The position numbers were made by a program, and so were the translations under genes. A stretch of 64,000 nt of DNA from Owenia fusiformis (lineage: Eukaryota > Annelida > Polychaeta > Sabellida > Oweniidae), in NCBI GenBank assembly GCA_903813345.2, contig CAIIXF020000012.1:2955318-3019317 (forward strand), read 5' to 3'. Below, piece by piece: positions 717-34,323 of this stretch; the stretch's first letter is position 1; each line of letters begins with the position of its first letter. A model generated the notes under the pieces. The model was not told where the DNA came from. It made no database searches and worked only from the letters and a program-made list of their open reading frames with translations.

Positions 717-722
717 CATATA

Positions 723-874
723 ACAGGGTGCAAAACTAAAAGAGAAAATGCAGGTTTCTCTTTTAAAACCATATATTTATTTCCAAATATCTGTGTACTT
801 ATTTTCTAAAAAGCAAGTTGTGGTAGAAGGAATTGCAGAAATGTGATGGTTTGAAATTTGGAAATATGACTCAG
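723..874 (+). repeat. Left terminal inverted repeat of the giant element
   Basis: 152 bp that match the reverse complement of 31716-31867 without an evident indel. About the first 100 bp are almost identical; the inner 50 bp have scattered substitutions. It starts ACAGGGTGCAAAAC after a TATA at 719-722. The inverted match including the flank runs from C717 to G31873 and stops there. Confidence 0.85.
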
Positions 875-940
875 GTCTCTACATGTTTTCTATGTTTTAC
901 TGTTATGCGACTACATGGGTATGTTTTGAAATTAAATTTG

Positions 941-1421
941 GGTGTCTATGGACACCATCCGTGTATGATTCACTAGATATTAATATATTTTGTAATCATT
1001 GGCAAACCTTATCATATGTTGATGAGGCATATGGTGTCTATGGACACTCTTCCGATACTGAGATATAAACACTCAGTGACTGGAATCATTGAAAATAAAA
1101 TAGTGTCCATGGACACCAACATAATATAATTCTTTTGGCAAAGGTGTCTATGGACACCAAGAAAAGCAATCAGTATTTGAAAGCCACAAATTCATTAGGA
1201 AAACATAACGTCTCCAGTATTGTGATAGTGAGGAGTCTATGGACACTCATATGATAGAACCTCCAACGTATACCTACATAATTCCCAAACAATTAAATAA
1301 AGAGTGTCTATAGACACCCTCGAACACAGCATATAATACAGGACGGCGTCTATAGACACTGCGATAACGAACACATGAAACAATAAGGTCTGTATGCAGA
1401 TGAGAGGTGTCTATGGACACT
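941..1421 (+). repeat. Left array of eight 16-bp palindromes (GGTGTCTATGGACACC type)
   Basis: Copies lie at 941-956, 1033-1048, 1102-1117, 1143-1158, 1233-1248, 1303-1318, 1345-1360 and 1406-1421. The core is GTGTCTATGGACAC; the copies at 1303 and 1345 have TATA at the centre, close to a perfect dyad. Spacing is irregular, about 40-90 bp, and the DNA between copies is unrelated. This is a binding-site array pattern rather than a tandem repeat. The left copies mostly read CTATGG at the centre, whereas the right array reads CCATAG, so orientation is mirrored at the two ends. Confidence 0.88.
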
Positions 1422-2190
1422 TACAGAATCAAACATCAGATCTTACCATTTATACTGATGCGTATTTATTACCATATTAGTCATTTATATACAAAGCGTT
1501 TCGTCTCTTCAGATAAAAATTGATCTGTTTCATCATTTGTAGACAATACAGACATATTGACATATTGATGATCAATCACAGTGTGACCATAACTAACGAA
1601 GAACATTCTTGATTCTGGTAAACAGGTGTAACACAAACGTTTGAAAAGGTAAAACAGTTTAGACGTCTAGTCCATATACGCTTGCTACAGATCTTACTAG
1701 ACTTCAAACTTCAACATAATCAAACAAGCTAGCAAACATTCACTTAAGTTGAATTGCTATCTTAGGTTTAACTATTTACAATATACATTATGGGACAAAA
1801 TAATATAAATGTATACAATTTTCTTTCTTAAAATAGACAGATTACATATATGAACATTTATCTATATGGAACCAGTAAGTCAAATAATTACATATTACAT
1901 GTAATGAAATAAATTACTTTAAATGTCTATGATCGTGCGGCAAAAATACAGGAAGTGATTATTATATTTAAACAAGCTAATATGACAAAAAATCAGTATT
2001 TTAATAAGGTATTCTGTGGTTAAGTTTTAGACTTCTCATTGTACTCGTACATGTGCAATGGCAATGTTAAGACAAATGAGTGAGCTGGAGGTGTATGAAC
2101 ACGTATATGATACATAAAACAAATACCAAATTAATCAAGATGGTATGGTCTGAATATGAGTTGTCTGCATGTATACATGTAAACTATTTG
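1422..2190. other. Element interior between left array and gene end, no gene seen
   Basis: About 770 bp of AT-rich DNA between the palindrome array and the 3' end of the minus-strand ParB-like gene. No ORF with coding character and no further palindrome copy was seen. Confidence 0.5.
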
Positions 2191-2196
2191 TTTATT
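2191..2196 (-). terminator. Polyadenylation signal for the ParB-like gene
   Basis: TTTATT on the plus strand reads AATAAA on the minus strand, 73 bp past the TAA stop at 2269-2271. It is a canonical hexamer at a plausible distance; the cleavage site itself cannot be seen. Confidence 0.55.
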
Positions 2197-2200
2197 TATA

Positions 2201-2257: not shown

Positions 2258-2268
2258 TGCTCTTTAAC

Positions 2269-5200
2269 TTACAATTTGGATACAATTGATGACAGGCATG
2301 ATATAACCTTTGCTTGGTCTTGCATCAAAGTAATTATAAGGCTATTTTTTGATATATTAAGAAACCCACTCTGGACTACAAAGAAATTTTCAATGGCAAT
2401 GTTGACTCCCACTTTTGCCTGGTCCTTCTTATTAATAAGACACATATTTTTGCTAATTCGGAGTAATTTATTAAACTCGTCTATCTTTGATAGCTGCCGT
2501 TGACAGTAATATATTAAGTCGTCCTCCTTCACCCCTAAAAACACGTAGTCTTCCCACCTAGCACAAACGATCTGCAAAACCAAAACCCACAAATTAAAAC
2601 AAAATCTCTCAACCAACATTTCAAATACATTAATTAATATATTAAGATACTCTTTTTAAAATGTTTAGTATAAATATATATATTAATTAAGGACAGAACA
2701 TACCAAACGATATTTAAAATGCAAATATTTTTCTAATTTTAGTTCTTTGAGTTCGACAATTGACAACTGTGACATGACCTAGGCCATTTGTAAACATTTA
2801 TACACAAGTAAAATTAAAATGTCAAGCAATCAATGCTAAAAATGCGTTAAAGTTTTCCATCCAAAGGTACTTCTTTCACCAGTTGTTTTACAATCAAAGT
2901 ATTTGAAGAAAAGCTAAGTAAGCGCATAAAATATAGCTTCATATTTCAAATTGAAAAATATTTTACCTCTCGAGATGATGTCTTCCCAGACTTTTTCTGC
3001 TGACTCAGGGTAGTGTGCTGAAAGCAAACAGTTTTATTTAAATAAAAATTAAATACTTGACTTCTGCACATTATCATTTCCCCCCTCAATGTATTCCTTC
3101 CATTCAATAAATCAAGCTAGATTCACTTTGTTTAACTTGTTGACAGTCTAATTGCTCCTGGTAGAAACATTAACATGTGAACATCTAGAAGGGGTTCAAG
3201 GAATTGAGACATAACTGATCAAATCTGGTATCATTTAATGAACATAAATCTTTGTAAAGTCTATACTTTCTCACCCCTCTATCTAAAAAAGTTGTGTATG
3301 TTTGTAAAGTATGACACACCACATGGAAGAACTATTCAAGATATGCACAACTATATTTAGAAGTCAAGACAGCACCCCTTTGTCTTAAAGTCTAGTTTCC
3401 CTGAAGTTACCATTCTCCTTTAAAGATTCTTACTTTGCAAATTGTAACAGAACATGGATTTTAGTATGGCCTTCATTAAAAAACAACTATGCATGTGGAA
3501 ATTCTTTCAAAATCCATAGAATCGCTTTGCCGGTTTTGTTCAAAAAAGCTTTTTACATTCAAAAGTAAGATATGTAAATCCAATTAATGCAAGATAGGTA
3601 ACTGAAAGTATCAAAACGTAAGAAGGAATTCATATAACATTAGATGAGGCACATTATCACCCTACATATATAGGCACTAAATGTTACATGACATTAATAA
3701 GACAATGATCATCATTAACAACATCCTTTGCTGAGAAAATCAAGAGTATCAATGACCACTAGAACTGAACAGCAACCAGAAATTCAGGATATTACCCCAC
3801 AAATAAAGAGGAGAAAGTTGAAGAAAGTAAAGTGATATTAAAGTGACTCATTGATTGACTTTAACATTACATAGTATCTATCTTAGATTAACATTTGGAT
3901 TAGAAATTAGCATTAGCTCATTTATGGGTATTTAATTATAGTCCCTTGCTGCAATTTGGTAAGTCAATTTCACTCTCAATTCTTGACGCATTTTATCAAC
4001 AGTTATGCTTTTATAAACACATACACCTTATAAAGATAAACCTTATAAGAATACTGTTACCAAAAGTTTTAAATTGACCCTATCATAAGTTATTTTAAAG
4101 CCACAAAACTGTATTTCAGTCTTAAATAATATGCAAGGGCAATCTACTGAACATCATGTAAATAGCCCTACAGAAATGTCTGCAGCAGTTATAGCCTAAT
4201 AGGCAGATATTTGATATCTTGGTATATCACCGCATATTTTTCCAAATACGCATGTTCTAAAGTCATTCATAACTTTTTGTTTATATGGTACTGTCATGTA
4301 ATTCTTGATGGAAAATATAAAGGATACCTTTATTGTTTTAATCATCAAAAAGTGAATAAATTAAAATCACTACATTCTGAGCATTTAGACTCTAAACTTG
4401 ACATAATTGTAAAAAAGCCCCATGTTACTGAATGGCAGAATAAATCTGAGACTTTGTTTACTGCTGCATGGAGTAAAGCTGGAGATTTGTTTAAAAGTTC
4501 AGTTGGAAACAGCTGTGTCAACTCATAAACAAGTATTAATGTTTTCAAAAATTATTCTTAAATGAGATTCGACAGTTTCAAATTTAGCATAATATTTACC
4601 TGTGCACTTATTGCATCACAGAGCTCATTTGTATTCACATTGTCTATCAAATTATCTGTATCCCCTGTTCTGCAATCTGAAAATATAGACAGTAGCCCAA
4701 CTCACACTACGTATATAATTCCAAGACGTCTTGGCTAAAATGTTTTAGAACATTAAATTTGAGTTTATAGGAATTATAATCGCATTTAAAAATTCAAATT
4801 ATGAAGTTCTAGTGTACAGTGTGTCTCATTATATCCGTCCCCCAACCATAGTCTTTCCGAAAGCACCCATACAGCATTCTATACAGCATATTAAATCTTA
4901 TTTAATTCTTAACATATAGGCCAAATATTGTCATGATTGAACAATGGAAACATAATCTTTGTTATTAGTCACTATCATGATTGGCTTGCTTTATCACGTT
5001 ACTGACATGACATATAGATTAAAAAGAGGAGCGGCTTGCAATTAAATGTATTGTACCATGGACTTTCGACGAGAACGGTAGGCAACTTCCTATATTTCAT
5101 ACATAAGCATTGCCTTGATTTTCAAAATTGGAGAAGATACACATTCCGAGAAAATCTTATTTTGTACTTTCTTGCTCATTTTGAAGGTCTCATGTTATAA

Positions 5201-8200
5201 CACAGAGTTGCATACCCTTATAATTGAAAGCCCATGATTGTACATTTCAAAACAGGAAGTATTTTTTGTCTATCAAAATCGATTTGCACCCTACATCCCT
5301 ACTTCTTACCCAAATATGTTACTAAATAATAGTATAATCTTTGGTTTTACAAAGTATGATATCTGATAACTGTAAATGTTGTTTTTGGAGCATTTTTATA
5401 GCCATTTTGTAGGGATGTACAATCGTTTAATTTAAGTATGACCTGAATCGATTGCAAACATCATTTTTGCACATTTGATGAGATAAACCATTTGTGTCTT
5501 ATTGTGAAATTATTAAGTTTTCAGGCCATAGTGTATTTTGGTGTTTTTGTGATAATCAATGGAAACAAATTGCCTCTATTGAGATCTGATGGCCATGTTA
5601 AGTCGATGGTGCACAGCCCAATGCAATTCAATACAACCTTGCTGAACTACTAGTTGACCCCTATCTCAGCCAAATATATACCCAAAGATTTAAACATATT
5701 CCCAATAATTATGTGACATCATATTCATCATGTTACACCTAAGAATGATTCATTTTGACCATTGGGGTATTTGCCATTTATCGCACCTCATCCTTAGCAT
5801 TTCTATGTCTATCGAATTAAGATGTTAACTCACCTTGAGTTGTTGCCTGCGGATCAATCTGTTGGCCGTACTTAGCTTCCCGTCGTCTTTTTGACTCTGC
5901 AATACGTAAGCAAAATGCCATCAAGTTCCAATTGAAAAATTGCACAAGGCAAAAATCGTACAATTACTATAATTGTATTACATTTGTCAGTATAGAAATG
6001 TAGAATAGGCCTAAAGATACATTTCACTAAAAATGAGACCCAAGTTGCAATTTTTAGTCAAAGCTACATGTATGAATGAAATACCTAAATGACACTATTG
6101 GGGTAAAACGCTACATGGAATTAACAGAATTTTCCATATTCCCCGCTCTCTCATTGGTCTATGCACTACAGTTACAAAAATAAAAGACGTATTCAACAGC
6201 CATGCTTATTACAACCTAAAAAGGGTATTCACCAGTAGAATATATTCGTCCAGTACAGTGTAAATTTGAAAACAAAGTAATGTTCTCCCATTTTCTTGTT
6301 CTTATAAAACATTCCAAATAAGAAAGTGGGGGATACAAATATTCCATACAATTTTCGGTAAATTTCTATTGCATATCATCACTTACTAAATGCGATATCA
6401 ATATCTAGAGCATGTTCATCCGTTTCCGTTCGAGCAACATCTCTACTTCGCTTCACACCAGACGTTCCGCTTTGATCAGTGATAGCCTTAAAATAAAATA
6501 TTATTCTTCTATGGATACGCGTGCAAACATTTTCAGAGTCGAATTGATGAATTATTTCTTTACTGAGTTTAACTGTCATCTATAGTTGATTATACAAAAC
6601 TTACAAGTGATGAGTCGGTTGCAGGAATAATCTCGCTGATATCGCTTACATTGCTTTGTTTTTCATAGCCTTCTGACAACCTTTTAAATTGCTTTTCAAA
6701 ATCTGAAATAAAAGCATTTTTGATAAGCTTTCATTTACCATCCATCCACAGTAGCGACAGCTACGTATTTGGAACCATTTTATTACATTTTTGTTGCATG
6801 CAATTTAGGTCGTATTGTTATTGTATAAACAATATGTTTGCCTGACCTTTTTACACATATCATTCTAGTTCTTATACGTAGCCATAAAATACTACTATGG
6901 TGTATCTTTAAGTAATTATTCAGCCAGTGGTTATACTTGTATGACTTACATAACTTTTCGTTTTTCAGCTGTCGAATAGTTTCTTTGAAATGTTCGTGCT
7001 GTTTCTGATCGAACTCTGCCTCTTTCAACTTGTTTTCAAGACCAGTCAAATCAGTCTTTGCCTTTAAATACAATTAATACAATCGTGATTATACAGATAA
7101 CCAGCTCCCGTACGAGCTGAAGAAACTACCCAAACAATGTAAAACCTTGATGATTAATTCAATTTCTTTCATGTGAACACATACATTTTCTTAACAAATT
7201 AACTATAGGCTATCCTTTTTAGTTTTGAATACAAAAGAAGTATCACCAATAAACTGTTATTTTTCTTGGTTATGAACTCAAACGACTTACCACCGTCATT
7301 GGGATAACTCTTACCAGTATTAGAAACCTACCTTGGTATACATTGCCGTCATAGCAGTAAGATCTTTATTAGATTTCCGAAGGCTGCTTTTCATATCCAA
7401 GTAACTTTTCTCAATCTAAAAACGATATTTTTATTTAGTATTTCAATTGATGTAGAGTTTGTAGGGAATTGTTTATTGAAATAAATAGTATGTAGTATTA
7501 GTATGCTTAAAACAGTCTACACATCAATTAGTCAATTTATCAAGACGTATCTGCAGCAATCAAGTTTTGAGTTTTGAGGGATCGCGTTTTTCTACTATAT
7601 ACCTTTGAGTAGTTATCTGACACTCTCGCCAGGTCATCCTTATATCTCATTGCATTCTGTTCTGCATTGGTCAGTTCCTGCTTACACTGAAATATGGCAG
7701 ATTGAAGAATTACGGAAAATGAACCGACATATCAAAGTGAGAAGTAAACGTAATAAACATTTTTGTATAGTTTATTACATCCTGATGTAACAAGGAAATG
7801 AGCGTTTTAAAACATTCTACGCACAAATCCAACTGAAACATTATCCAAACTCAACCGTAAGCAATTGAATTTCTCAACTAACTTTTGAAATTACTGGTGA
7901 AGGTTTATGCATACATATGTTATGCTATGGCTGGTACACGTCTGATACAATATATAGACAGATAAAGGATTCTTCTAATTGTGATCTGAAGAAGTGGATG
8001 GAAGGGGGATACCTTATTTTCGCTCGAAAATTCAACAAATCTGGGGGCATGGACCAACCCCCTTGGATCTACCGTTTGCAGGGTATACTCTTATATAAAG
8101 TTAATTATGATACTGGCGAATTGGAAAATACCATTCTGTATGGGTATTGATTGAAATGCAATTTTAAATCCAGGTGCCCCTTTGGACACCGAAGTGGAAT

Positions 8201-11200
8201 TTAATATCATGTATTGGACATATAGCATAATATTTTGTACCTGTAAATACTTAGTTGTCATAACTTCCAAGTCGACTTTTAATTTATCCACCACAGTGTC
8301 GTCTTTAGGTCCAGATACATTCTAGCAACGCATATAAAAACAATATTATTTGATATATAAAAGAAATACAATGATTACTTCGAAAATAGTGCTTTTAATG
8401 AAATAATTGGCTACAATTTCACCAATGTCTTCAAGGCATTTTAGCATACTTCCAGCCATTAGGTGTTGTTCTTAAAACTAATTACTCAGTACTACTTGAA
8501 ATAAAATGTGGCTAGAAACATGAATCCGATACCCCATGGTCTGTTATGTTTGTGATATATTGTCTGATATCAATTAACTTTGAACTCTACGTCGTTAACA
8601 CTATTAGAATCATGTAAGATAGTTTAACTAACTTCATGTTCGTCCTGGTTTACAATTTCTTCTATTATATCATCCACATGTTCGGCTCTTGGAGTCTCTT
8701 CTGTCGATGTATTTCTATAATAGAGAAAAAACCAATGAGACTTGTTAGCATGAACATTTCCGACTTTTTAAATGGTATTAGAATCATTTGAAATATACGT
8801 GATTAGCAGACGTATGGATATTTAATATATGCCTTACACTAGAACATCAGTTAGAAATAGTAATTAAAATTTATTAATGTCCAGAATACATTGTATATAA
8901 TGTTTACTTTAAGGAGAAAATTCCATTAAGAAATCACTACACTTTTGATTTGAATTATTGAAAATGGTCATGGGCTAAAAATATTGCTTACGTGCATTTC
9001 AATCGCAATTGATTGTAATCTATCTGTCCATCTATGCACTGCCTGATAATGTGAGTGGCATCCTCCAGTGGTGGGGTCAAGAGGCAAGCTATGTGGTGTT
9101 TTTTCAACACCGTTTTTCTTTTTGGTTGTTTAGGTTGCTTCGTAATCTCACCCTTCCTCCACTTGATGTCAAAGTGTTTCAACTCTTGAAATGATTCTGT
9201 CGGCCATTGTGCAATACGTATTGCCACTCCGTATGAATTATTGAAATCACGTCTCTAAAAGTAAAGGTATATTGTGCAGATAGAACATTTTTTTCTTTTA
9301 TTGCCTAATATATATATAAGAATTTGCAGGATATGAAGTTTAAAAATCGAAATGTCTACAGGGGCGTATCCAGCTTTCAGTCAGGGCAGGGGGGGGGGGG
9401 CGATCACCAAAAAATCCATTTTTAGTCAGGGGATGCGATTGTGGCACAAAAAGCCAACAATTAAGATTTATCTTGAATTTTACAAAAACTTCCTTCATAA
9501 TAAATTGAGGTAGAAGCTTCAAATAAAAAGAATTTTAAAGCTATTTTCTTCTCAATCAATCACCAATTGCACCCCCCCCCCCATGGCTACGCCTATGGTT
9601 TAATTGAATGTAAAAACTCTGTATTGAACTACAAGTATTAAAAGTTGCTTTCACATTCAAATAGCTGATACAGATATGCTATCTACTGAGTATACTCATA
9701 TGAACAGAGATATAGAATTTCAAACTGAAACATTAAGATAATTTGTTCTGTCGCTGAAACAATATTTATGGCCAGCTAAATTTCTGAGAATTTAATGTGT
9801 TTCATTCGTTTACTCCTGGACTATATAATTTCCAAACAAGTTGCCCCGGAGCAGTTTACATAATTGTTCAATATGTAACTGAGGCCTGGGTATACTTTCA
9901 TTAATGAAAAGAATTCTTATCCATAAAAATCGGCACAAATGAATGATAACATGATTAGGTTCGTATTTTACCCAACTTTCACCTGTTTTGTGGTTGAACG
10001 GAATTGAGTTGATGCAATTTTGAAATAGATATAATAAGAAGCTTTAACTTGGGGGAGAACCCCCCCCCCAAACCCCCCTCGAACTCGTTCGCTTCGCTCA
10101 CTCGTGGCGTACTCTCACAAAATACCCACGCTACGCCTCTGCACCACGCATTAATATCTCAGTACACTAGCGGACATTTTAAACATTTTTAACGTATTCC
10201 TGGGCCTCAGATATGGAATTGGTACGCGCGGCCGCGTAGTTGGTGTGTGCCTTGTTAATAACCTTGGTGGCCAGTGCTAGGCACTGCATATGTGTGCAAT
10301 CTTTGGCATAGAAGTCGGAATTTCATCTAATATAAAAGTTCCGTATTCCGCAAAGATATAGTTCAAGTTATTCCTTTTAATTGAAATATGAAATGTCATA
10401 TGGATTGGATATCTGAAGCTCTATATATTGGTAGGTGTCATGCTCATCTATTGCATTGCGTAAATACGGTCCATTGTCTGAGTGATTCATACGTTCGATC
10501 AAATGTTATTTTGGGGTATTAGTTCACCGAGTCATCTTATTGAGATTTTAGATACAACATGTCTGATCTATTTACAATATGTAGATTTATTTATCAATTT
10601 AAAAAATGTAATTCTTATAAGTTTGCATTTTGCTAGATTAAAAAGACCACCTGCATTAAAGTTGATTTATAATTAAAATTAATGAGATGCATATTGGATG
10701 ATCTCAACACGATAAGTACCAAGACCATTAACAGTTAGAATAACACAACCTAATGTCCAAGTGGCAATTTATGAGATAAGCAAGAACATTTACTGTGAAA
10801 TATGGACACTTTGGTGTTGCATTTAATTTACAACGAGTGGTGCCTTACAGAAATTTGAGAACTATGGTGATAAGCGGAGATTGTTTGAGCATTTTAAAAA
10901 CTCCATTTTGTGTAAAAATGTACAAGAACAACATTAAAATGAATGTTTACTTATTTCTATGTTGCTTGTGGACATAGCTTTAGAGTTGATTGATTAAATT
11001 CAAATGTTAACGCAATTTAAATCATAGCACGAGGGACATCATACAATCAAATATTTAAAAAGGCTTTATTTGCAAATATTTTTTTGGCTGAAAATTAGAA
11101 CCTTCTGTTGATGAAATTAATCCATAAACTCTAAAAAAAGGATTAATTATAGCTGTGTAAACAAAATTCATTTCACAGATTGAATAATTAGGATTAAGGG

Positions 11201-14200
11201 TTTAAGCATATTCTCTGACATGTCTCAAAATATTTTTGGATCAGTTTTCTATATCACGCACCAATTTGCTCAAAGCTTATAAGTCAATTTGGTGATAAAT
11301 CCAAAATTTAACACTACGTTAATCATAGCATGGGGGAAATTTCTCTATTTCCAGCTCGTTTTAAATAACTATCAAAGAAATAAAAGTTGGCCTGTCTTGC
11401 TTCTGCGAGATTTGATGATTACAGCTGAGTGTTACTGGGACTGTCAAGTTGCGTCAATGGGTTTTACTAAAACGCAGCGTCTTAAACTGACCATCGTTAT
11501 CCCGGGGATCGCGGTGTATACATTTACACCCCTATCGGCAAGAACCAGCTTATGCCATCTACCAAAACGCACATGCCTTTTTGGCAGAGGGATCAAGGAC
11601 ATAAAAAGCATATTTTACGTAGAGCTTTTAACCTCGGTCATTTTATGTTTCAATAATATAAGCGAAGATATTTTCACATTTCATTAATTACGTAGCCCTC
11701 AATGCCTCCAGAGTGGACCTAACATATCATCGGTTACTTTATCTTTCGACACTCTATTTTTTGAAGTTATACTTTGACATTGTCACTTGACATTAACCGC
11801 TTATTGCATTTCTGAGAATACTTTATATACCATTCATCAATTATACCAAATTTCAAATCTGGGCACTATGCCAGGGCGATCGTACCACCTCCCCATTGCC
11901 AATAAAAAATATAACCATGAGATAAAAGAAGAAAGGAGCTATAAAATGCTTTTTATTTGAAGCTTTGAGCTCAATTTTGAAGGAAGTTGCATCAATTTTT
12001 GTAAAATTCAGGAAAAATCTTAATTTTTTGGCTTGTTTATGCCACAAACGGACCCCCCCTGACTGAAAGCTGGCTATGCCCCTGTCAAGGTTCAGTTGCT
12101 CCACAATAAAATGACGTTTTAGTTATTAATTAATTATAACTAAGTTCATAACTTTATCCCTTATAATTAATAACTAAAACGTCATTTTATTTAGGTAACA
12201 CATGATTTCAGTGGAGCAACTGAACCTTGAGAATCAAGATTGCTTAAACGATCCAGACAAGGCATCGTGGCCAGATTTATAATTTGATAGGTATCCGATA
12301 TAACCTAAATAGTCTTATATGTATGCCGAAAACTTGGTACAGATCTGTACTTGCCTTCAGGCTATTCATTTACTCCTGTTGACACTGTGTTTAGAATAAA
12401 ATAATAAATGGTCCAGATACTGTTTTAGGATCTTTCTTAAATCCAGCCAGAAACTGCACCCAATATTGAATTGCTACTATATCTAGGTTATTTGAAAATA
12501 CACTAAAAAGTGAATACATTAAACATGAGCGTATGCCCATGCATTAAAGAATGATCAAATTCTTATAAATACCAAGATTGCTTTTGTACTGTTTTTCTTT
12601 GGAGAATTAATTTGTTAACTTATTAATCATTACTTGCCCAGGGTACTTGATTAGCAGGTCTGCATAATAACTTTATGATTAGATGAACTTGCACCATTTT
12701 CAATATTAGAATAAAACCTGGATATATCAGAATTTCAGATAATTCTGATATCCGTTAATGTTAATCCAGTGTGGGCAATAAAAAGTAGGAAGGCACTGTT
12801 TTCTTCAAGCAATTTCGGGTGTTAAAAGATTCAAAAAAAGAAAAGCAAAACATTTTGAAAAGTCACAAATTCATAAGAAATTTGATCGCCGCAAAATTTA
12901 AAAAACTGAGAATTAGTGAATATTCATAGCTGCGAAACTTCGAAATTGCAAAAAAGTGAAATATAATAGCGTCAAATATAAGTTAGAGTAGAGTATTATA
13001 TTTAAATTCATTTTGGTCATTTAAACTGTTTATGTTTTCTTATTTCCAAAATTAATAAAATCTAGAAGGACCCCTCCCCTTCTGATATTAATAGCATAGT
13101 TATGTGATAAAATACAAATATAATGATACAATATAATATGAAAGTCAAGTAAACCTCCCCCCCATCCTTATTAGAACAAGCTCCCAGAGATCTTCTTTAT
13201 TTGAACTCATTTCAGATAATGATAATAATATAATTTCAGATTGAAAATCATCAACTTCTAAGATGGTTAGAATGGAACGTTAGGAGTTGAGAATCATGCT
13301 TAGCGATTGAAAGCTTCTAGACAAACTCCTCATACACAGTAGTAGGCTTAAATTTCAAAATCAAAGCAATTAACGATCAGCTGTTTAAGATAAGGTGACA
13401 GCCTCATTAATTTTAGCCAGAGAAAAATCTGAATCTGAAATGTCTTTCTGGGTCTAAATTTGGCGTTTCCATGAAATTTGCGAGGGTTAAAGATGAAATC
13501 AATGCTAAATCGTTTGGTCTTATTTACTACTCACCTTTTGGATACCCCGCACTTGTTGGCACGTCGCCTTCCATGCTTCGACAAGTTTTCTATCATTAGG
13601 TGGGTCAACTGTTGTGGTCTCTATTTCTGACTTGCCCGAGAGTTGATATAGAGCTGCTCTCATTTCGCATATATTTTCCATGTAGGACTCATCCTTGCCG
13701 CTTCTCCGTACAATATTGTGGAGGTTTGCGAGGTGCCTCGCAAGATGGTTTGGCAATCCACAATACACGATTGCATCTCTAAATCGAAACATGTTTTTTA
13801 CATGTTCCGAAATAGTGTCATCGTTTAGAATAGAAAGGAACGCTTCTCTACTATGGTTTCCCCCTATTACTTCTAATATTGTTCTTTCCCTTGAAATCAC
13901 TTCTTTCGTAAATTGTTTGACATTTGGCACATTGACCAGTATAAGGTGAAAATATCCACTTGGGTTTTTGAGGAATGTGTCTTTGAGACTCTGGACATGG
14001 TTTGGATCGGGAGGGCGCACGGATCTTTCCCAAGAAGGGGCAGTCAATTTACGCACATCAACTTTGAAAATTCCACAATAGAAGTCAGACGGGTTCTCTT
14101 TCTCCGATGAGGGGACTTTGTCATCGGGTGTCTTTAACTGGCAATGTTCCTCTATCGCAGTACAAAGTGCTGATCTTGAGGTTCTTTCCCGGACAGTCAA

Positions 14201-20900: not shown

Positions 20901-23900
20901 GGAAGTAGTTCAACCAAAACTTGATAGGTCGGATGACAAAACAATCGAAGAGGCTGTCGAAATAGGTATGTTGTTTATTTACACTATGAGCACACCATAT
21001 ACCATGGCAAAGTCATATTTTATTCACGGGGCCTCCAAAACTAAAACAGGTGCTATAAATCATACTGGTGCTTGAAATGAAAAAGTATGAAATAATTGTG
21101 ATCCAGTTTAGTAAAAAAACAGTTTGAAAATGAAAATGCATTTTTTAATTGATTGATTTTTCATAGTGCCCTAAGAGCGGTGGCACAGAAATGTATGGTG
21201 CGAATGACAAAAATAATAGATAAAAATACATATCATGGATCAGGCCAAAACGTCCCTTCCTCATTTTATTGGAAAGAAATCTAAGGTACTGGCAACATGG
21301 ATGCAGAAACTACTCCACAAACAAAATCATCAGTATTCCACCCCTACCAGATAATTTCACTCTCTAATTGGTTTTATATCAAAGTAATCTTTCCATCAAT
21401 TAACACCTCATTATGTTAACATGTTTAAGGTCTCTCTTGACCATATTGCACTAATATTTATCAATTTTCTTGCATAGTAAATGAGAATTAAAGTGAAAAG
21501 TTCAACTTTGCCTGTCTGGATGGTGTACACAAATTGAAACTTAAAATAAAAAAACTTGAGATATTTTTTTTTATCATGAATTGAAAGTAGCATTTAAGAA
21601 AAGTTTTCAATTTGGAATAATTAAAAAGTAAAATTAGTAACTCATCAAAATTATTAAAATGATTTTAAAACAGTAGGGTAATAGAAAATAAAATGGATAC
21701 ACATTTAACACATTAAACCAAGCATTTCTCTATAGATTTGAAAGTGTTGATTACAAGTACAGTGAAACTTCAGATGTCTTTCTCTAAATGGTTGATGAGC
21801 ATGAGCCGTTTTCACAATATTAAAGCACAGAATTTCTTCTTTATCATTGTCTAAAAATGAAACATGTGAAAAATACATTAGTATAAATATAATGAATTTA
21901 AGAATTTTATTTAAGAGGTTTAATCAAAACTCTGACCATATCTTAGCAGTGATTACAGTGAGAAGTAAGAGATAAACAACACACAGGCACTGGAAAGTGG
22001 TGTTATTAATCATTTAATCTTCAGCAGAAGCAGATACACGCGGTACTAACTTCGACCGTTAATTTGAATTTTTGACCTACCGGATGTTTGAAAATCAAGG
22101 ATTACGAGTCTCATAATGCACCGTTTTTCTTCAAACTTGTTCCATTCAAAGCATAACAAAAATCCCTTTCTGTTGGTACATTATTCTTCTAAACAGAGTC
22201 CCTTCTTCCAGCGGCATTTTGGTCCCCAGCTGTAAGAAGGCCTTCTAACAGCTGGGGACCAAAACACTGCTAGAACGAGGAACTCTTTACAATACAGTAA
22301 TGCACCGACAGAAAGGCAATTTTGATTTGCTTTTAATGGTATAAGTTTGAAGAAAACGGTGCTGTATGAGACTCGCAATCCTTGATTTTCTAACATCCGG
22401 TAGGTCAAAAATTCAAATTAACGGTCGAAGCTAATACCGCGTGAGATAAGCTTTGAAAAGCGAATGTCCTACTGATATGTGCTGTGCATTATATTCCACA
22501 CTACATTTGAAAGTTAATGGTTCATATAACTGCAAAATTATTTACCGATCTGTAATGGCTTAGAAGACTCCTCGTCAATTATTTAATCGAGTCTAAGTGT
22601 ATAAAGTCTGATAGATGACATACATTTGATGAAACCAACATAGCTGCACACTTCCCTTAGATCAATATTCAAATAGGGTTTCAACAAGTTTGATCACTTT
22701 AAAGTAATTGTACATGTGATAGAGAGATGAAGCCGCTCAATGATGAATTGATTATGAATATAAAAAATCCCAGAAAACAGAAGAGATTTAATCTTCATGA
22801 TATTAATTCCATTAATTGTTGCATTGGTTAATGTAATGATTATTCTTATTAAGGGAACATGGGGCAAAACGGCCCTAAAAATTAATTTTAAGTTGTTCTG
22901 TACGGGGTATTTTCTTATCTGTCAATCATCGCGCACTTTGATGTTCCACTTTATCAATGGTTTGTGGTTTACATTTTTCGAGTGTTTTATACTTGCCTAG
23001 GACTATCTGCTGTGATTTTTCAATGGTCAAAAATATTGTCGAGAGTGGGGCAAAACGGCCCATAGGTGGGGCAAAACGGCCCACCCTCTGTTACATGGGT
23101 ATTAAAACCAAAATTAATCAATTACAAGACTCGTCCATACACTTCTTATCTCAGACGTTCAAATCTTTGACAGATAAAGAATCCTTCACCGCTACCATAA
23201 TTCTAGTCATTCGATATGTGTCGGAGTGAAATAAGGTACAAACCAAATGTTAAAATCGTTATATTTGAAAACCAATTCTACTTGCAAAATAAGATTTTTG
23301 TATGTTATAACATGTGTGGGCCGTTTTGCCGCAAAGACTTTTGTAATTTTCAAATAGACGTCATTTTAATTTGCCTAATATTTGAAGCTCGAAATTTTTA
23401 TAAATAAAGAATAAATGTGCAAGCTCTATGAAAAATGTTAAATCAAAACGATATTCTATTGTTGCCGGATTTTTTAGAGATTCTCGTGGGAGGGGTAATT
23501 TACAAAAAGAGGGTGAAAAATAGAATTACCTCTTACGTAAAGCGAAACGCTGCTTGGTTAAAAATGGGCGGTTGAGAAGGTGGCAGACATTTCAAAATTC
23601 GATTATGTGACTTTTGAAGAACCATCTTTTTATAGTTCAAAAGATATTTCGATGGGCAACTTTGCCCCAGAGGGCCGTTTTGCCCCATGTTCCCCTAATG
23701 ATACACCCCCTTTTCCTTGAGGTAGAATAATGATACTGCAATATGCCATGCAGTATCCGAGGAGGTTTGGGCTCACTGTTTGGGATATCAACAATTATAA
23801 AACTGTGCTACACTTTCATGTATAGAACATGGAAAGTCTCAAGGGGTTGGCCTTGGGAATCTTAACCGTATTTTCTGGGTTTTTAAAAACAATTGCAGTA

Positions 23901-26900
23901 ATTTCAGCAGTGATTCTAATAACGTTGTAAATATTATCGCAGTACTCAAACTGAACTTCAGAACTAAAACTGCTATCAGGATGCAATTTCCAAATCGTCT
24001 GTAACTCTCTTACTTGGCAAGTTTTTGTCTAATTTTAAAGAATTGTATTTTCAAAGACACAGCTCTTTAGAAGAGAACTTTTAATGAAAATGGGATTGCT
24101 TCAACAAGACAAAATATATATGGGCTGTATTCTCATTTGGTTTCAATAAAGCGGGTAATCGTGTCATTTAAAAAGCCGCCTCTTTTGATTAATGTTTGCA
24201 TTCTGCACATGTATTAGTTATCCGCGAAGAATTTCCCGACCATGGTATACATTGGGCACATTTTCGGAAAAATCTGAAAAATCTGTTCAGTGACCTTTCC
24301 CAAGCTCCTACTTTTAGCTATTTTTCAGCTACATTTTCAGAGGGCTGAAAAAGTTATTTCATCATGTTTAGGGTCATTCTGACCGCATGTACATTGTGAT
24401 CCTGGTCATGTAAATGATACGTGGAACTGGTTTAATTGACTGGAGTTCAAAACAGAACTCTGTTATCTTTGTTCAAAAATGTCTTTAAATGCAGCAATGT
24501 TTTGTCACTTCCTGTTTTGTTATTCCCTGTTAAGTACCACTATATATTTTCCCGATAGTTCGAGTTATTTTGTATACTTATATTCAGTAAGTAAGGTTTA
24601 CATTGAATATATTAAACGTCATCCCGTCTTCCAACGTGTTAAATGTTAGAAAAGTAGTTCCAAATAAATCTGTGTATAGCTAACTCTTGCATCTATGTTT
24701 ATTTCAGCAAAGAACAAAGGCGCCAGAACATCAAAAATGCTTATACGAAGTATTCAGGGAGAGTCTATTTAAAGAATTGCATAGCTACAAACCACTGTTC
24801 AAATCGATGTCATGAAATACTGACATTTAATGATATAAAACATGCAAGGGAGTCCTTTTGGACAAAAAACTTTATTCAACGTAACCAATGGTTACTTTAT
24901 GAAATAAGGCTTTCAAAGCATGGGGTTGATAAACAATCGTTTAGAGTGCCAACATCATTATATTCAATAAATGTATGCTCACTTTGCTGGAGAGCAATTT
25001 ACATGATCCCCAAGCATGCATTTTATAAATGTAACAATAAAGTGGCGGAGGGATTTTTAAATTCTGCAAGAAGTTACCGGACCAAGCGGTTTTCAAGGGA
25101 TGCGAAAGTTGCAGCATGGTTCAGCAACTATGTAACATTAGGCGGTTGTCGAATGCCGCACAAGAAAGTAGACGAAATCTGGCTTCCCTACAAGACCGAG
25201 TGGAAGGATATTTACTCAAAATATAAAGAGGACATGGTTAGGAAAGATGAAATTTCTGTTTCTTACAGTTCTTTTAGGAACACAAGAAAGAAATATTTTA
25301 GCCATGTAAAGATTAAAACAGTGAGTCATTTTCTAGTACCAACTCAATGTATCAACTTGTTTGACCACACTTATTTGTTTTTGATCTTTTCAGTCATAGT
25401 ACCTCAGTCGTACCTGTACGCAGATGGTTATTTAACACAGTTAACAAACATTTCTTTCATGACCAGTACATCAGTTATGAAATATAATACAGTCATAGAT
25501 ATCCGACATTCTCAACATTCATCAAGAAATTGTGATGTACTGTATTGTACCTTGTAGGTCTAAGTGCACGTTGGATTAAATCTAGGAGGATTTCATCCTA
25601 GTTCTAAATGCGCACATACTTAAACAAACTAAAAACAATTAATGTTCTAAAAGCCATGTCTTCACCATTTCTGACTTGTTTTGATGTCCACCTTAGTAGG
25701 GTTACTCAACCGTTTGCATTTATGTGCAATTTAGGCAAATAAATTATATAATTATAATGATTTAACATATTCGTATATGTACATTATTTGGTTCCTTGAC
25801 GTTTTTGTTGATGTACTTATAATGAATGATTCCAGACAAACTCTTTTAGTAGATGCGCCAAATGCACCTTATTAGAACGACAGGAAGAGGGTGCGAAAAC
25901 CAAAGAGAGAAAATTGAAAATTGCCAAGAAGCGGGCCCTGCACGATAGACGTCAAAGGTATGATGTGAATTTGCTGTTCATCCCCTTTATTATGCACCCT
26001 GCGCGCAGTCTAGTTATAAACTTCAACGAACCTCTTTTTAAGACATGAAGTCGAACGAATGCAAAGGGTATCAGGCCCGTAGCCAGAATTTTCCAAGGGG
26101 GGAGGTCACTTTTCCAAAAAATTCTAGGGGGGGGTTCACTTTGGCAAATTTGGCCAAAAATCACTCAAAAAATAGTCAGAATGGTGAAAAACTGCATGAT
26201 TTTGAAAGAAATTTTGGTCAGGGGGGGTTCGCCTGGCTACGGGCCTGGGTATTTACAATGCTTTCAATGCTTTTCTCTCTCTCTCTCTCTCTCTCTCTTA
26301 TATGGACCTCATTTTCTGTTCATTATGAGACGGTATTATATACTGTAAATTATGATCTTCAATTATTTTATTCCGGACAGTGAACTGCAGTAGTTGCGTA
26401 AATATAATGGGCAAAATACATTCACAAAATTTTTCTAAAAGCAAGCGTATTTTCAGGCTTGAGAGGGCTGCCTACTATGCGAGACGTGATAAATCAAAGG
26501 AAAATCCTAAGAAATATCTTAGTATTATCATCGATGGAATGGATCAGGCCAAAACGTCCCTTCCTCATTTTATTGGAAAGAAATCTAAGGTACTGGCAAC
26601 ATGGATGGGTTTTCAATAATTATAACTGACTTCAATTTACACAACTGAATACTTCAGTAATTAAACACTCATTTTTACAATTGTTCATGGTCCTAGAATG
26701 TTATGGCACTTAGCAGCTTATAATTCACATTAGCATTACACGTGACCATTATCAACAGCACACTTACCTAAAGGTTAATTGATCAGCTCTGCATTTGAGG
26801 GGTAAAACATTGATTTAGACTTTTCATGTAAGGGAGCAGTAAACATTGGATTGTTACAAACGGCTGCATAGGTTAATTAAAGGGGCAAAGAGGTCTGTAG

Positions 26901-29900
26901 AGAGAAAATTAGTTTTTTACTTTTTCTGAGCTACCGGGGCAACATTTGGCTTAACATCTTCTTTGACATATATGTTTTCTTAATATGTATGGATAATCGA
27001 TCAATTTCAGCATTAAGAAGTGTAAATTCAGTTCAAAGCTTCTTTAAAGGGAGTCCCACTCAAAGATTTTTAAGATCATTCACGTTTCAAGAGGAATATC
27101 AGCTGAAATAAAGTTCATCCAGGATTGTTTTGGAGAAAATTAAAACATATGTTAGCCTTGATGAAATGTCCAAAATTGCATAAATGTTGACACTGGTTCA
27201 TGGTCGTTGAATGGCCCCTCTGCACTAATTGTTAAACCTTTAAATATTCATAGAAAATAAGACTTATTCGTTTGTCCCATTTATTGAAAGTTTGTACAAG
27301 CTGGGGGGGGGGGGGTATACCGTATCCTCAATACATTAAATAATTCGACATTTCGATTTCAGGATTTGAATCCGCAACACTTTCTAAAGGTGCATGTATC
27401 TGGGATCCTCAACCATGGAACAAAGGAAGCATTGACGTATATTGATTTGTTTGAGTATCCACATGATTCCAACTTGGTGATGAATATTTTAAACAAAATT
27501 ATTCTGGATATCCATATGACCAAGGTAATAACGTTTAATCCACACAGAAATTCTCTATAATGGGTAAATCAAGATCTAGAGAAGGCGAACTATATTTCTT
27601 ACATATCATTGTGAAATAATTCCTGGAATAAAGTAAGGACTTTTTAGAATTTTTACAAAATTGACATACCAAGGAATGATATGAGCCCAAAATATAATTC
27701 AATTAAAACACTTTTTGTTTTGCTTGCTCTCTAATATCCGATTCTCTCTCAAATAGCAAACTATAATAATTATATATATCATATTATAAAATAGCCTAAC
27801 ACGAATCACTCTGCATCCGAGAATTACATAATATAATTATGTCGTATAGATCAATGTCTTCATTTTAGGGTTGCCATCCTCCGATATTATACCTACAGGC
27901 TGATAATTGTTATCGAGAAAACAAGAACAAGTATTTGCTAGGATTCCTCGATATGTTGGTACACGCAAGAATATTTCACGAGGTATCAATTATTTTCAAT
28001 TAAAAGTTAGTAGGGATATTTAGGAGAGACTTATATTAAGTTGGACATCCACCCTCCCCCTAAAACTTAATTCTTAAAATATAGAAAATCGGGTCTGAGG
28101 ATTGAAATGAAAAAAAAGTAAAGTTTGCCCAATACATGATGGAAATCGGCAACAAAGTTCAGCAACATTTTTCAAGGATGATGATTAGCTTTTAAATATG
28201 TATATAAATTAGTCATTCCAATGCTACATTTCATGTCGCTTTACTATATTTTTGAAGGCAGTAGAACTCTGATTTTATGAAATTCCCAACATTCATTTTT
28301 CGGATGGAAACATTTCAGTGTTGAACCCATCCCCATTTGTTACGTTTCTAAACAGACTTTGAAATTTTGACGTCTCCCCTTAGCTGACCAGTATTTGTAA
28401 GCTTATTTTGTAACAAAGTCGAATAAGGTTTAGAAGCATAATCATTCATTTAAGTTCTAGAGATTTATTTAAAATGGAAAATCATACACTGCACGGTGCT
28501 TTAAGCAACCTGTGTGTGAATCATTTACCAGTCCTTATCTGGTAAAAAAATTTTTTTATTTATATTTATTTACATTCCTGTGGCCTTGCTACCATTGTTT
28601 GACAAAGCTACTATTTCTGACAAAGAGAATGGGGTTCCGTTTCTCCGACTCTGCCTCTGGCTACGAACCTGCCACCCCATCATGCTATAAATCATTCTGT
28701 TTATGTTCAGTGAGGAAAGTAATATTAACTGAGGATCATTAGAAAATTTCACAGATTGATGCATGTGTATTTGAAACTATCTGTAGACATATTTATAATT
28801 CTTCTTTTTCAGATTCAACTTTCCTTCCTCTATGTAGGCCATACCCACGAAGATATCGATCAACTATTCAGTAAAATAGCAGACAAACTTGTCAAAACAG
28901 AGTGTCAAACGTATGAGGATTTTATGTCACTTTTACCCAAATCACGGCACATAAAAGACATGCTTCTCTTTAGAGAATGGCTTAACCCATATTTAATAAC
29001 CATCAAGAAACATAGCAAAACTGGCATGTTCAGGTTCAGGCTAGACGATACCAACAGTGAAGTTGTAAACGTGTATTATAGAAAAAACAGTAACCAGCGT
29101 TTTAGATTATTAGAAAATGGAATGTTTAAGCGGAACGAACATGGCAATCCAGTAAGACCAACCAATAAACCAGAAATTATGATTCCAAATTATGATGAAC
29201 TCAAATTACATGATAAATTGAAATATTTAGAAGATTGGAAACTTTATTTTGATGACTTTTTGGAGGACACTGAATATATATTATGGAAACGTTTGATTAA
29301 GAGGTATATGTCCCCAGCAGCAACAACAACCACTGTACAACCATTAGTATGTTTTGATCACGTGGATAAATACCGAATGGATGATTTACTGCTGAACAGA
29401 GATCTTGTTGAGCCTGGTGACGAGTTGTTAGATGAAATGCTACAACGGGAGCTTGAAAACCCAGCAGTAAGTAAAACAACTTTTTTGTTTAAACCTCGTG
29501 ACGTCAGTACCATTAAATGCATCTTTTGAAATCGTTGAATAAAAGTGAGACGAATGTGTGTTTATAAATAAGGCTGACCTCATGAGTTCATGAGGTCAAT
29601 ATACCACAAGTTGACGAGTGGCATCTGAGATCGAGGTTCGCTTCTATTTCAAGCTCATGGGGAAAAGTTAATTGCCCCTGATCTTTATAACGGTAGTAAT
29701 GATGGATATTACCCCAAAAATAAATGTAATACTAATTGTATCTTATAATCAAATAATACAATTTATTCTGATTTGGGCAGATATAAGTTATAATAAATGT
29801 AGTTATAATATGTTATGAATATAATATATATATGTTATAATATGTTATGAATTTCCAGATTGAAGTCAGTGCAACAAAAAGACGAAACAATCCAACTAAA

Positions 29901-30509: not shown

Positions 30510-30515
30510 AATAAA
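30510..30515 (+). terminator. Possible polyadenylation signal of the Ubl-transposase gene
   Basis: AATAAA 469 bp after the TAG stop at 30039-30041. It is the first canonical hexamer I found downstream. The 3' UTR length is inferred. Confidence 0.35.
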
Positions 30516-31069
30516 AAGATGTGGTTTACATGTACAGTACAGGGTGTTTCATATGTATGCACCCCCCTCTAAACTCATACATGCAGCATTGCCACCCTAT
30601 CGTGTTATATATCATTTTGTTCCTTATGTTACATAAGATTCCAGGGGTGTCACTGACAAAAAATATTTCTAGCTATTGTTACCATGGCTCAGAGCTCAGT
30701 CTATATTGCTTTGCCTAGTCATATAAATCCGACCTCTGTATGCTGTTATTTGTTGTTATTTTTTCTTATTTGGATGTTTATAATTCTTATTTTTTGCATA
30801 CTGGGTTCGTAAACATTAGCCGCATCTTTATTGAGGGAAACGCTTTTTTGGTCTGTCTCCCCAACCAAATGCTGTATACTGGTATACGTAATTTTTAAAT
30901 AAATGAATGTCCATAGACGCATGTAAACATAACAAGACTGCATTAAAAACGCCCGCAGATAAGATTTGTACATTGATATATTGATACCTTTTGGAGTACA
31001 CGGTCACTTCTTATTTGTGTAAAAACCAATCAAGTATAACATGAAAAAACGTGTTAAATGTTAGCGTGG

Positions 31070-31678
31070 GGTGTCCGTAGACACCAGGTCTCTACCTTGT
31101 ATATATTATTCTATGAACTATGTAGCTAGTATTAAACAAGCCTGAGTGTGTCCATAGACACCTTTCCAAGCAACAATTCTTGTTTCATGTGTTTTCACAG
31201 TGTCTATAGACACTAGCCTGTTTTTTAGGAATACATTTGTGTACATTTAAAATGTTTATATATTGGACTTGCAGAGTGTCTATAGACACTTTGGGACTTT
31301 TGTGTATAGGGAATCATGGATGTGATATTAATTGATATATATCAATGCGGGTGTCCATAGACACCGTCAACTTCTCATTATTGGGAACTGTATTTTCCAA
31401 TTTATTTGGTGACTCAAATATTTAAATTTCCTATTGGGTGTCCATAGACACTTTGCTCGCAAGCATTTTGTCAAGTGTTATCGTGGTGTCCATAGACATT
31501 TTTGATTTTCAATAAATCAACTAAGTAAGTGTCCATAGACACTTTTATTCTATAGACATGGAAACATTTTCATATTTGTTAGAGGGGTGTCCATAGACAC
31601 CCCTCTTGTAAATATGATGACGTTTTGGGATGATTTGGAAATTGGTGCATTAACGCGTGAGTGGTGTCCATAGACACC
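31070..31678 (-). repeat. Right array of ten 16-bp palindromes (GGTGTCCATAGACACC type)
   Basis: Copies lie at 31070-31085, 31147-31162, 31199-31214, 31275-31290, 31350-31365, 31437-31452, 31485-31500, 31528-31543, 31586-31601 and 31663-31678. Those at 31199 and 31275 are exact dyads (AGTGTCTATAGACACT); most others read GTGTCCATAGACAC, the reverse complement of the left-array form. Spacing is about 45-90 bp with unrelated DNA between. The mirrored polarity supports both arrays belonging to one element. Confidence 0.88.
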
Positions 31679-31715
31679 TCATATATAGTAAAACATAAAG
31701 TAAATAATACTGTAT

Positions 31716-31867
31716 CTGAATCATATTTTCAAAATTCAAACCATCACTATTTCTGTTATTCCATCACCACAACTTGTTTTTTAGAAAATAAGTACACAGA
31801 TATTTGGAAATAAATATATGGTTTTAAAAGAGAAACCTGCATTTTCTCTTTTAGTTTTGCACCCTGT
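31716..31867 (-). repeat. Right terminal inverted repeat of the giant element
   Basis: Inverted partner of 723-874, same length. It ends GTTTTGCACCCTGT and is followed by TATA at 31868-31871. Confidence 0.85.
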
Positions 31868-34323
31868 TATATGAAACATTGCTGTATGAATATGGTGATT
31901 TTTGTTGAATAAATAAGTGACATTGAGTTAGTGGATACGTTTCAAACACTTTATCAGTGATTGCTTCTCGGTAAAAATCAACCAAAAGCGAGACCGAAAG
32001 GTTAAGAAATAACTGGAAGTTCTCCCTTGACCTTCATTAAAAATATGAACTTTCTTTAATGTATATTTTTAAATTCAGGGTAAAATTCTGCGACTGAGGT
32101 TCTAAGAAGTTAGTCACTTGAGGGTGTTCTTACGAAAATAAGAGGTAAATTTACACTTAATGATTGTACAATTGACTTATTTCTACAGTGGAAAAACTCA
32201 TTTGTAGGTTTTGGCCGAGTCTCAGTAATACTGATTTTCATTTTGTACAAGCATTGAGTAGCCTCATATCGTGAGTCAGATAATCTCATGATATTGCCAA
32301 GCAAATCATAACAAAAAGGGTCAATGTGAAGTGATGATCTAAAACAAAACAAACCCATTTATTGCACTGACCCAGATAACCGCCCCCGTTATTTATGATG
32401 AATCTGCAAAATACCCATTTTTGACCTGTCAATTTCACATACATGTACAGGGTGGGCCAAAAAACGTCCACATTTTTGTTTCAGCTTCACATTTTTGATA
32501 TTACAGACAAATGCACGAACCATATATCATTGGAAAGACAATTCAATTCCAACAATATGGTATAAAATTCATTTTATGTTTTTATGTAAATGAATATTTG
32601 TCTTAGAGTTACAGTATCATTTCGATGAACACAGGGGTCAAAATCATGATTTACCAATTACTGAATATAGAATGCTAAGAGCTGACCACCAGAGAGATGT
32701 AACCCCTATGTCAGCTTTGGGGATGAAAATTGTTGATTTATGTACCAACTGAAAGAAAATTGATTTACAAATGCAATATTATTGAGTTATTTTACCATTT
32801 TGATAGGTACTGGTAATATAACCTAAATAATGTTATGAAGTCTGTTTCAAATAATTGAATATTTATTTATTTTCAAGACATTTTGGAGATGCCTATTTAA
32901 GGCTAAAATTATCATGAAAAGGGCAATAATGATGTTGTACTTATATGACGTAACTGACATTTGAAATGGCAGACAATGCAGTTATAGACACCAGAAGAAG
33001 AAATCTAACAATCTAACTTTATAATGAACTACATAGAAATAGGTTCCATGGTTATTTCAGAGCTATAAAATGACTTACAAACAATAAAACTCAACTCCAA
33101 TACTTTTCCTTTATATGTGAAAGCCTAAAAATGTTGATTAAACAATGTGTTATATTATGCAATAAGCTCAAAACATTTATTTAGGCAAGAATGAGGGCGG
33201 GGTCAAAAGTAAAGACTCAACCTGGCATAGGGTTTGCTCTTGGTACTTCATTAAGCGCGGGGATACGCCCCTTTTTATATAGCTTCTTTGGTTTGGTTTA
33301 GCTTCAGATTTTGGCACTTCCTTTGGAAAATATTAAGAGAATTTCAAATACGTATTCCAAAAGGTAACAACAATTAACAAAGTGAATAATTTTTATTTCG
33401 CGAAAATCTGATTTTAATTTACAATAATGGAGAAATTATACTGATAAGACTGAGCTACAGTTTCCCAAAAGAGAACGTGTGCGCGAATGTGTTAAAATAA
33501 TGCGCCTCTAGCTCAAGGGACTGCCTCTCTCCTTTCTGGTATTAACGTAAACCTTGGTTTAATATTCCCAATATTTACTAATCAAGTTAAATTTAAAGGT
33601 ATAAGGAAACGTTTATAATTAGGCATCTGGAAAAAACAATTGAGAGAGGGACTTATCCCGGCCTTGGGGCAATGGTATTAAACGCACACCTCTTCTTAAA
33701 ACGTGTAGCTTGACCTTTAACGTTTTTAAATCCATGACTTGCAATTAAATGTCGAGTCATATGACTGATTAAAGTGATTAGATAACACAGTGCTTGAGAA
33801 AATATTGCTGACAGTGGAGATTGCCTCGAAAATAAGATTAATCAATGACAAAAAATCACGAGACTAGAACAATCAAGTTCCAAAACCACGCAGGATACTG
33901 ACACTACGCTCTCGATATTCTAGAACAGTTTGTGTATTTTTCATCACCCCAAGTTCAGAGGTTAGTTTAAAACAATGAAATGAAGATCTTCTTAAAAGAA
34001 GCTTAGTCAATCTGATGCGAATGGTAATTTTTCATACCAATACGATTTAGGATTGAGTTTGGATGGATGGCGAGTGATACTTGGTCAAGGCAGAAAAGTT
34101 TTCTGCCTTTTTTATTCATCAAGCTCTGCAAAGGGTAAAAAGTTCTTGTGCAACACGTATGCAACAGCTAATTATAATTGTGTGTTGACCTCGGTTTCTG
34201 ATGGAATATTTCTAAATATAAAACATTTTGTTTTCAGGGAACACGATTCTCTTAATTATCTGACCCCATTATGCAACATGATCAATCTCTTATTAATAAA
34301 CATTTTGTTCATTTACTTATCTA
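31868..34323. other. Host intergenic DNA, no gene seen
   Basis: AT-rich DNA between the giant element and the mariner-like MITE. ACAGGGTGGGCCAAAAAACG at 32448 looks like the end of another repeat, but no partner end was found. No exon was recognised. Confidence 0.45.

Follow-up and report, generated by a model that had tools for sequence, protein, structure and literature searches.

Do the inverted repeats that lie some 31 kb apart in the genome of the polychaete Owenia fusiformis bound a single giant mobile element, and, if so, how might such distant ends be brought together? We addressed this question in a 64,000-nucleotide stretch of contig CAIIXF020000012.1 (assembly GCA_903813345.2, positions 2,955,318 to 3,019,317; hereafter the window, to which all coordinates without a contig name refer), searching a genome of 498 Mb in 525 contigs. 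Positions 722-31868 are a giant DNA transposon of 31,147 bp, the mobility of which is well supported. Its inverted ends (717-874 and 31716-31873) are 94.3% identical over 159 alignment columns (E 3e-64); the 152-bp stretches 723-874 and 31716-31867, which an earlier sequence-only reading had taken for terminal inverted repeats (TIRs), match ungapped at 134 of 152 positions. As that reading had suggested, we searched the genome with the left 152 bp and obtained nine matches. Six of these form three complete inverted pairs, with 28-31 kb between partners; the other three are single ends, of which one is partial.

The complete pairs (family A) are the window copy and one copy each on contigs C7 and C3 (Table 1), the interiors of which are collinear with the window, with long pieces at 96-100% identity: 25,753 bases with 379 substitutions align in C7, and 25,817 bases with 389 substitutions in C3. 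Window DNA left unaligned in these copies lies at 15150-19262, within about 22853-23695 and at 26072-26274, and, between aligned pieces, both copies also have some DNA not shared with the window. With the element starting at AACAGGG, the flanking 4-bp duplications are ATAT in the window, TTCG in C7 and ATTT in C3, the boundary (5'-AACAGGG at 722, end at 31868) having been chosen because under it each of the three copies has a 4-bp duplication; an A precedes ACAGGG at all nine family A ends found by pattern. Under this boundary the flanks previously given as TATA become ATAT. The copies are collinear and flanked by their own 4-bp repeats, and the element is a mobile one. As for the single family A ends (C12:25447687, C4:15705519 and C2:16835992), the 40 kb examined at each contained neither a palindrome array (see below) nor a second family A end, and we take them for truncated copies. 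Those at C12:25447687 and C4:15705519 stop between the TIR and the expected start of the array, and are perhaps products of abortive repair.

Two divergent genes lie between the ends; we modelled them in all three copies with a simple ad hoc gene finder using splice matrices. The plus-strand gene has about nine exons, the last of which matches Pfam DUF7869 (3e-24), in agreement with the earlier label ‘DUF7869-like’; in a Pfam comparison of seven open reading frames (ORFs) of the element, DUF7869 alone was above the cut-off. Prediction gives the protein an RNase H order and an acidic triad of D377, D460 and D500/D502, and its predicted class, an RNase H-fold DDD transposase, is well supported. 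Homologues are found in lancelets, molluscs, echinoderms, one coral, one charophyte and many probably metagenomic sequences; DUF7869 is not mentioned in the open-licence literature searched. A ubiquitin-like domain had also been proposed; it was not confirmed, a Pfam scan of the exon in question giving no ubiquitin match. By eye, the N-terminal half is similar in the Branchiostoma homologue P0003. The join between exons 20065-20965 and 24708-25320 is provisional, we positioned the QADN-motif exon manually, and the C3 and C7 models preferred an alternative 3' end near 29.8-30.0 kb. Because the exon join is provisional and the copies differ by 2 bp near it, we claim no copy to be fully functional. 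Nor are both window genes intact, as had been supposed: a 4,113-bp insertion splits DUF7869 exon 1, which is read through in C3 and C7.

The minus-strand gene has at least 12 small exons, and its model and the public protein P0121, which is that of the C3 copy, agree over most of the length. Its 3' end was set after P0121 and a genomic relative (the gene finder ended at 1481); for the C3 and C7 copies it favoured a different start, one overlapping the DUF7869 gene. The proteins of this kind from families A–E (see below) and contig C144 share the motif E-[VI]-[IL]-G-G-[NH]-H, with A further on, flanked by V-P or similar before and H-N-x-V after. By eye, the motif resembles the ParB/Srx domain, from which we infer a fold of this kind; in the proteins modelled for families A, B and C it is followed by a coiled coil and then a C-terminal domain. 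Profile searches against Pfam, NCBIfam and PDB gave no ParB match, homologue searches returned the Owenia protein itself only, and AlphaFold prediction of P0121 alone was unusable (pLDDT 35). Similarly, hhalign against F SopB and P1 ParB, run with a shuffled control, gave nothing significant: I-L-D-G-S-R-R of P1 ParB was placed on V-I-G-G-N-H with a probability under 1%, about equal to that of the control. Given these outcomes, the name ‘ParB-like’ stays motif-based; motif and architecture speak for this part of the sequence-only reading, and the profile searches do not.

The two genes recur as a pair across the genome. The last DUF7869 exon matches at least 19 genomic places, and ParB-like exons give at least nine (family A query) or at least 30 matches (family C query), all of these counts being lower bounds. 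At 14 of the 19 DUF7869 loci a ParB-like exon is located 10-23 kb away on the same contig, in divergent orientation in all 14; together with the three collinear copies and their target-site duplications (TSDs), this sustains the proposal of one large two-gene DNA transposon with TIRs. DUF7869 loci without a partner are C35, C46, C12:35.37M, C11:25.77M and C6:23.58M, of which the one on C35 is 2.3 kb from the contig start, so that its partner would fall beyond the contig. Conversely, ParB-like matches without a DUF7869 match are located at C12:30.33M, C144 and C4:28.97M and, as fragments, on C3 (8.56, 8.62 and 8.65M); at C12:30.33M the flanks turn to N, and the about 780 readable bp past the ParB 3' end contain no repeated palindrome. 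The loci were sorted into families A–E by match similarity (Table 1). The window transposase exon is 32-42% identical to those of other families, and ParB-like identity to family D is 84% for E, 49% for C, 47% for C144, 46% for B and 25% for A.

The family B element (C7:28.72-28.75M), a distant relative, has inverted ends of 538 bp (92%) 27.7 kb apart, with TAGA on both sides. These ends start with AACACTTTCCAAAACAAAAGAGG, resembling AACAGGGTGCAAAACTAAAAGAG of family A, and between them lie a DUF7869 exon (28722957, minus) and a ParB-like gene (28742229, plus; about 700-aa model) in a window-like layout. Family B palindromes and terminal sequence are also found at C10:3925953-3927138. The terminal pattern AACAN5CAAAACN{0,1}AAAAG was rejected as a general end signature (45 matches versus 35 in a reversed control): it marks the A and B ends, places near the C3 ParB relics and one place on C473, and has no match at any family D or E end. 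The C3 relics (8.55-8.66M) are degenerate ParB-like fragments that form a cluster, which also includes three AACARAGGACAAAACAAAAG sites; they may be what is left of another related family. Beside those at C3:8.56M is a near-perfect palindrome of 890 bp (97%; local positions 117-1007 at that locus).

The sequence-only reading had noted mirrored palindrome arrays inside the TIRs and left them uninterpreted. Allowing up to two mismatches, GTGTCYATRGACAC has 19 sites in the window, all confined to the two subterminal regions (eight left and 11 right; Table 1), while the chance expectation is a mean of 0.47 and at the largest two in 100 shuffles, a figure which, as the pattern was derived from the same sequence, describes clustering and is no blind test. 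Judging by the non-symmetric bases, most left and right sites are mirror images. The C3 copy has 8 + 10 and the C7 copy 8 + 11 sites, and GTGTCYATRGACAC was absent from 20 of 24 scanned loci, those 20 having no end of a complete copy. Comparing window and C7, we counted 0 substitutions over 266 bp of sites and 14 over 1034 bp of spacers (probability of 0 in 266 bp at the overall rate, 0.02); comparing window and C3, we counted one in the sites and 16 in the spacers, and indels delete one site. C3 and C7 share many changes and are hence not independent, and exons are likewise below average in substitutions.

Arrays are present at all ten ends read of gene-pair elements: six of family A, two of B and one each of D and E, with none read in C. 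At the two family B ends, CATAGAAATTTCTATG is present in 10 and 7 copies (up to two mismatches), mostly inside the TIRs. In families D and E, the stretch about 0.4-2.9 kb past the DUF7869 exon contains no array, which rules out ends at about 2.3 kb past this exon as in A and B; the arrays, which the layout had led us to expect past the DUF7869 3' end, lie further out, at about 4 kb (D) and about 4-5 kb (E). The family D end (C4:29782784-29783322) has 11 perfect cores, ten of the 16-mers being TATAGAAATTTCTATA and one carrying one change, and the family E end, its location predicted from D, has 14 perfect TATAGAAATTTCTATA. In a pattern-free scan of 917 segments of 1.2 kb, ten contained at least three copies of one perfect 12-bp palindrome, all at B, D or E ends, and 630 shuffled segments never exceeded two copies; family A, whose sites are mostly imperfect, for that reason stays under this threshold. 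The B, D and E palindromes have TAGAAATTTCTA in common, and those of A differ.

Table 1. Features of the window, complete family A copies and families of gene-pair elements.
Feature	Position	Strand	Details
Left TSD	718-721		ATAT; flanks of three copies compared
Left TIR	722-874	+	5'-AACAGGGTGCAAAACTAAAAGAG
Left array	942-1420		8 palindromes GTGTCYATRGACAC, 0-1 mismatch each; also in C3 and C7
ParB-like gene	2272-14805	-	Gene finder on three copies; public protein P0121
ParB-like gene exons	14805-14671, 14287-13535, 9254-8992, 8714-8633, 8321-8241, 7677-7603, 7415-7332, 7061-6950, 6702-6605, 6486-6387, 5896-5834, 4676-4600, remainder to about 2272	-	
ParB-like protein, order of parts			ParB/Srx-like N-terminal part, putative DNA-binding part, coiled coil, C-terminal domain
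Gap between divergent start codons	14806-14966		About 160 bp; probable shared promoter
DUF7869 gene exon 1, 5' part	14967-15149	+	Severed by insertion; open without stop in C3 and C7
Nested insertion	15150-19262		4,113 bp; absent from C3 and C7; ends GGGGGGTGTATAGAG / CTCTATACACCCCCC; duplication TTTGAT (6 bp) on both flanks
DUF7869 gene, remainder	19263-29529	+	Gene finder; Pfam
DUF7869 gene exons after insertion	to 19592, 20065-20965, 24708-25320, 25884-25957, 26457-26589, 27363-27524, 27869-27982, 28813-29529	+	
Right array	30907-31677		11 palindromes, mostly GTGTCCATAGACAC; mirror orientation to left
Right TIR	31716-31868	-	
Right TSD	31869-31872		ATAT
Family A, complete copies	C12 (window); C7:31727506-31755888; C3:4157371-4185445		C7 copy 28.4 kb; C3 copy 28.1 kb
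Family A	window		Three copies
Family B	C7:28.72M		
Family C	C12:19.33M		
Family D	C4:29.79M		And four more
Family E	C1:13.15M		And three more

The nested insertion is a different mobile element from the giant transposon; inside each of its ends lie short tandem repeats, and its interior contains an inverted repeat at 16307-17190. In a DUF7869 intron, at 22037-22443, an inverted repeat resembling a hairpin spans about 400 bp (85%); the C3 and C7 copies have it too. Beyond the element, the plus strand of 33000-64000 contains coding exons that resemble a C2/MUN-domain protein of the Munc13 kind, a guess from ORF reading with no search match; they apparently belong to a host gene beside the element.

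How might these components work together? We consider it probable that the DUF7869 transposase cuts and joins at the ends, and that the ParB-like protein binds the arrays, pairs the ends and may repress or mark the element. The transposase, as its predicted fold and triad suggest, would act at the AACA... terminal repeats with 4-bp staggered insertion. The ParB-like protein, as a dimer, would bind the family-specific palindrome arrays just inside both ends; it would then spread or bridge, as bacterial ParB does from parS, gathering for the transposase two ends separated by about 30 kb; repression or marking of the element may be further roles. Assembly on the palindromes, which look like docking sites, and pairing of the ends are suggested by the dyad symmetry, the position at both ends and the conserved gene pairing. 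More tentatively, it is possible that one lineage of giant transposons in animals runs a true ParB-parS-like machine, in which a ParB-type clamp would load at the arrays of both ends, spread and bridge, solving either end synapsis or segregation of an excised circle for elements of about 30 kb, with site and protein co-evolving by family.

Repression or marking is a real alternative, and not exclusive with end pairing. That the ParB-like protein and the palindromes would serve self-regulation or chromatin marking, as repressor or anti-silencing factor, and not end pairing, seems to us somewhat unlikely. An Ectocarpus survey proposes that algal transposon proteins combining ParB and DNA methyltransferase bind and mark their own element (PMC12477816), and in the window the divergent genes share about 160 bp; however, the arrays are at the two ends, and in the window copy 13-16 kb separate them from the shared promoter region; neither the scanned ORFs nor the scanned protein contain a methyltransferase domain.

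It is unlikely, in our view, that the DUF7869 transposase itself binds the palindromes as subterminal sites, with the ParB-like protein acting otherwise. Several transposase superfamilies bind subterminal repeats, and the change of palindrome by family, while it would fit a ParB-like binder, would equally fit the transposase, which also diverges. Nevertheless, sites with dyad symmetry are what a dimer of the ParB type would be expected to bind (parS is a palindrome of 16 bp), and binding by the transposase alone would leave unexplained why an accessory gene lies beside 14 of 19 transposase exons. We regard as very improbable that the arrays are functionless decay products of tandem repeats or insertions of hairpin miniature inverted-repeat elements: site spacing is irregular and some spacers recur between sites, as after local duplication, but every end read of a gene-pair element has an array, and the family A sites have changed less than their spacers. 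Finally, the refuting case named in the sequence-only reading, separate short elements flanking ordinary host genes, can be dismissed despite the existence of three single family A ends, as two other loci have the whole 28-kb interior between the same ends with matching TSDs.

To which known class does the element belong? Sola transposons have a DDD transposase and 4-bp TSDs; KDZ/Zisupton elements have 8-bp and Polinton/Maverick elements 6-bp TSDs. All four elements with both ends read have a 4-bp TSD (ATAT, TTCG, ATTT and TAGA; boundary fitted), which agrees with the Sola trait, as does the predicted DDD transposase, and differs from the 8 bp of KDZ/Zisupton and the 6 bp of Polinton/Maverick; moreover, for the transposase exon Pfam gives DUF7869 and no KDZ model. 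Of the Polinton/Maverick genes (protein-primed polymerase, retroviral-type integrase, capsid), none was among the Pfam matches of the seven ORFs scanned. Kolobok and piggyBac duplicate TTAA, whereas none of the four different TSDs is TTAA. As judged from traits and published description alone, the element could be a Sola-type transposon. The accessible part of the Ectocarpus survey covers giant KDZ, EnSpm and Sola-1 elements, among them the 21.5-kb Sola1-1_Ec32, which encodes a 1104-aa protein with ParB-like and DNA methyltransferase parts on the strand opposite the transposase, and mentions similar proteins in transposons of green and red algae (PMC12477816). Sola1-1_Ec32 is thus, like the Owenia element, a giant DNA transposon with a ParB-like gene opposite the transposase; its protein has the added methyltransferase domain, and a palindrome array is unmentioned in that part of the survey, according to which KDZ/Zisupton elements also share a size near 30 kb, a large transposase and accessory genes (PMC12477816). 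The earlier assignment to an ‘unrecognised type’ is therefore uncertain. KolobokP elements, too, occur in Owenia fusiformis, and their description gives solo-repeat TSDs of 3-5 bp in the families analysed; they differ in long direct terminal repeats, a His-Me endonuclease and autonomous families generally longer than 4 kb (PMC9587614).

With bacterial ParB-parS systems (F SopB, P1 ParB, chromosomal ParB) the element shares clustered palindromes of 14-16 bp near the gene and, by eye, GGNH in place of the GxRR-like box of ParB with a helical part after it. It differs in the lack of a significant sequence match and of any ParA gene seen, in being eukaryotic and intron-containing, and in having sites at two distant ends and not in one cluster. 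In the literature, ParB has no occurrence in the KolobokP paper (PMC9587614), and ParB, Sola and palindrom- have none in a review of giant transposons (PMC6431247); an open-licence search combining ParB with transposon ends of a palindromic or subterminal kind gave nothing relevant among the matches listed. Given the algal Sola-1 element with its opposite-strand ParB-methyltransferase gene (PMC12477816), this kind of transposon is not wholly new; a palindrome array at both ends, varying in step with the ParB-like protein, was not found described in the open-licence literature searched.

Accessory ParB-like proteins, earlier known from algal transposons, are thus now found in an animal, and DUF7869, a Pfam domain of unknown function, gains a probable one as a transposase. 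Across families within this one genome, partner protein and arrays differ together, which makes specificity testable by swaps. If the ParB-parS-like reading is true, these eukaryotic transposons would have their own counterpart of bacterial partition complexes, and their transpososome would belong to a new class. For elements of 20-40 kb, the joining of the ends is an open problem, to which a partner protein with its arrays of sites is a possible answer.

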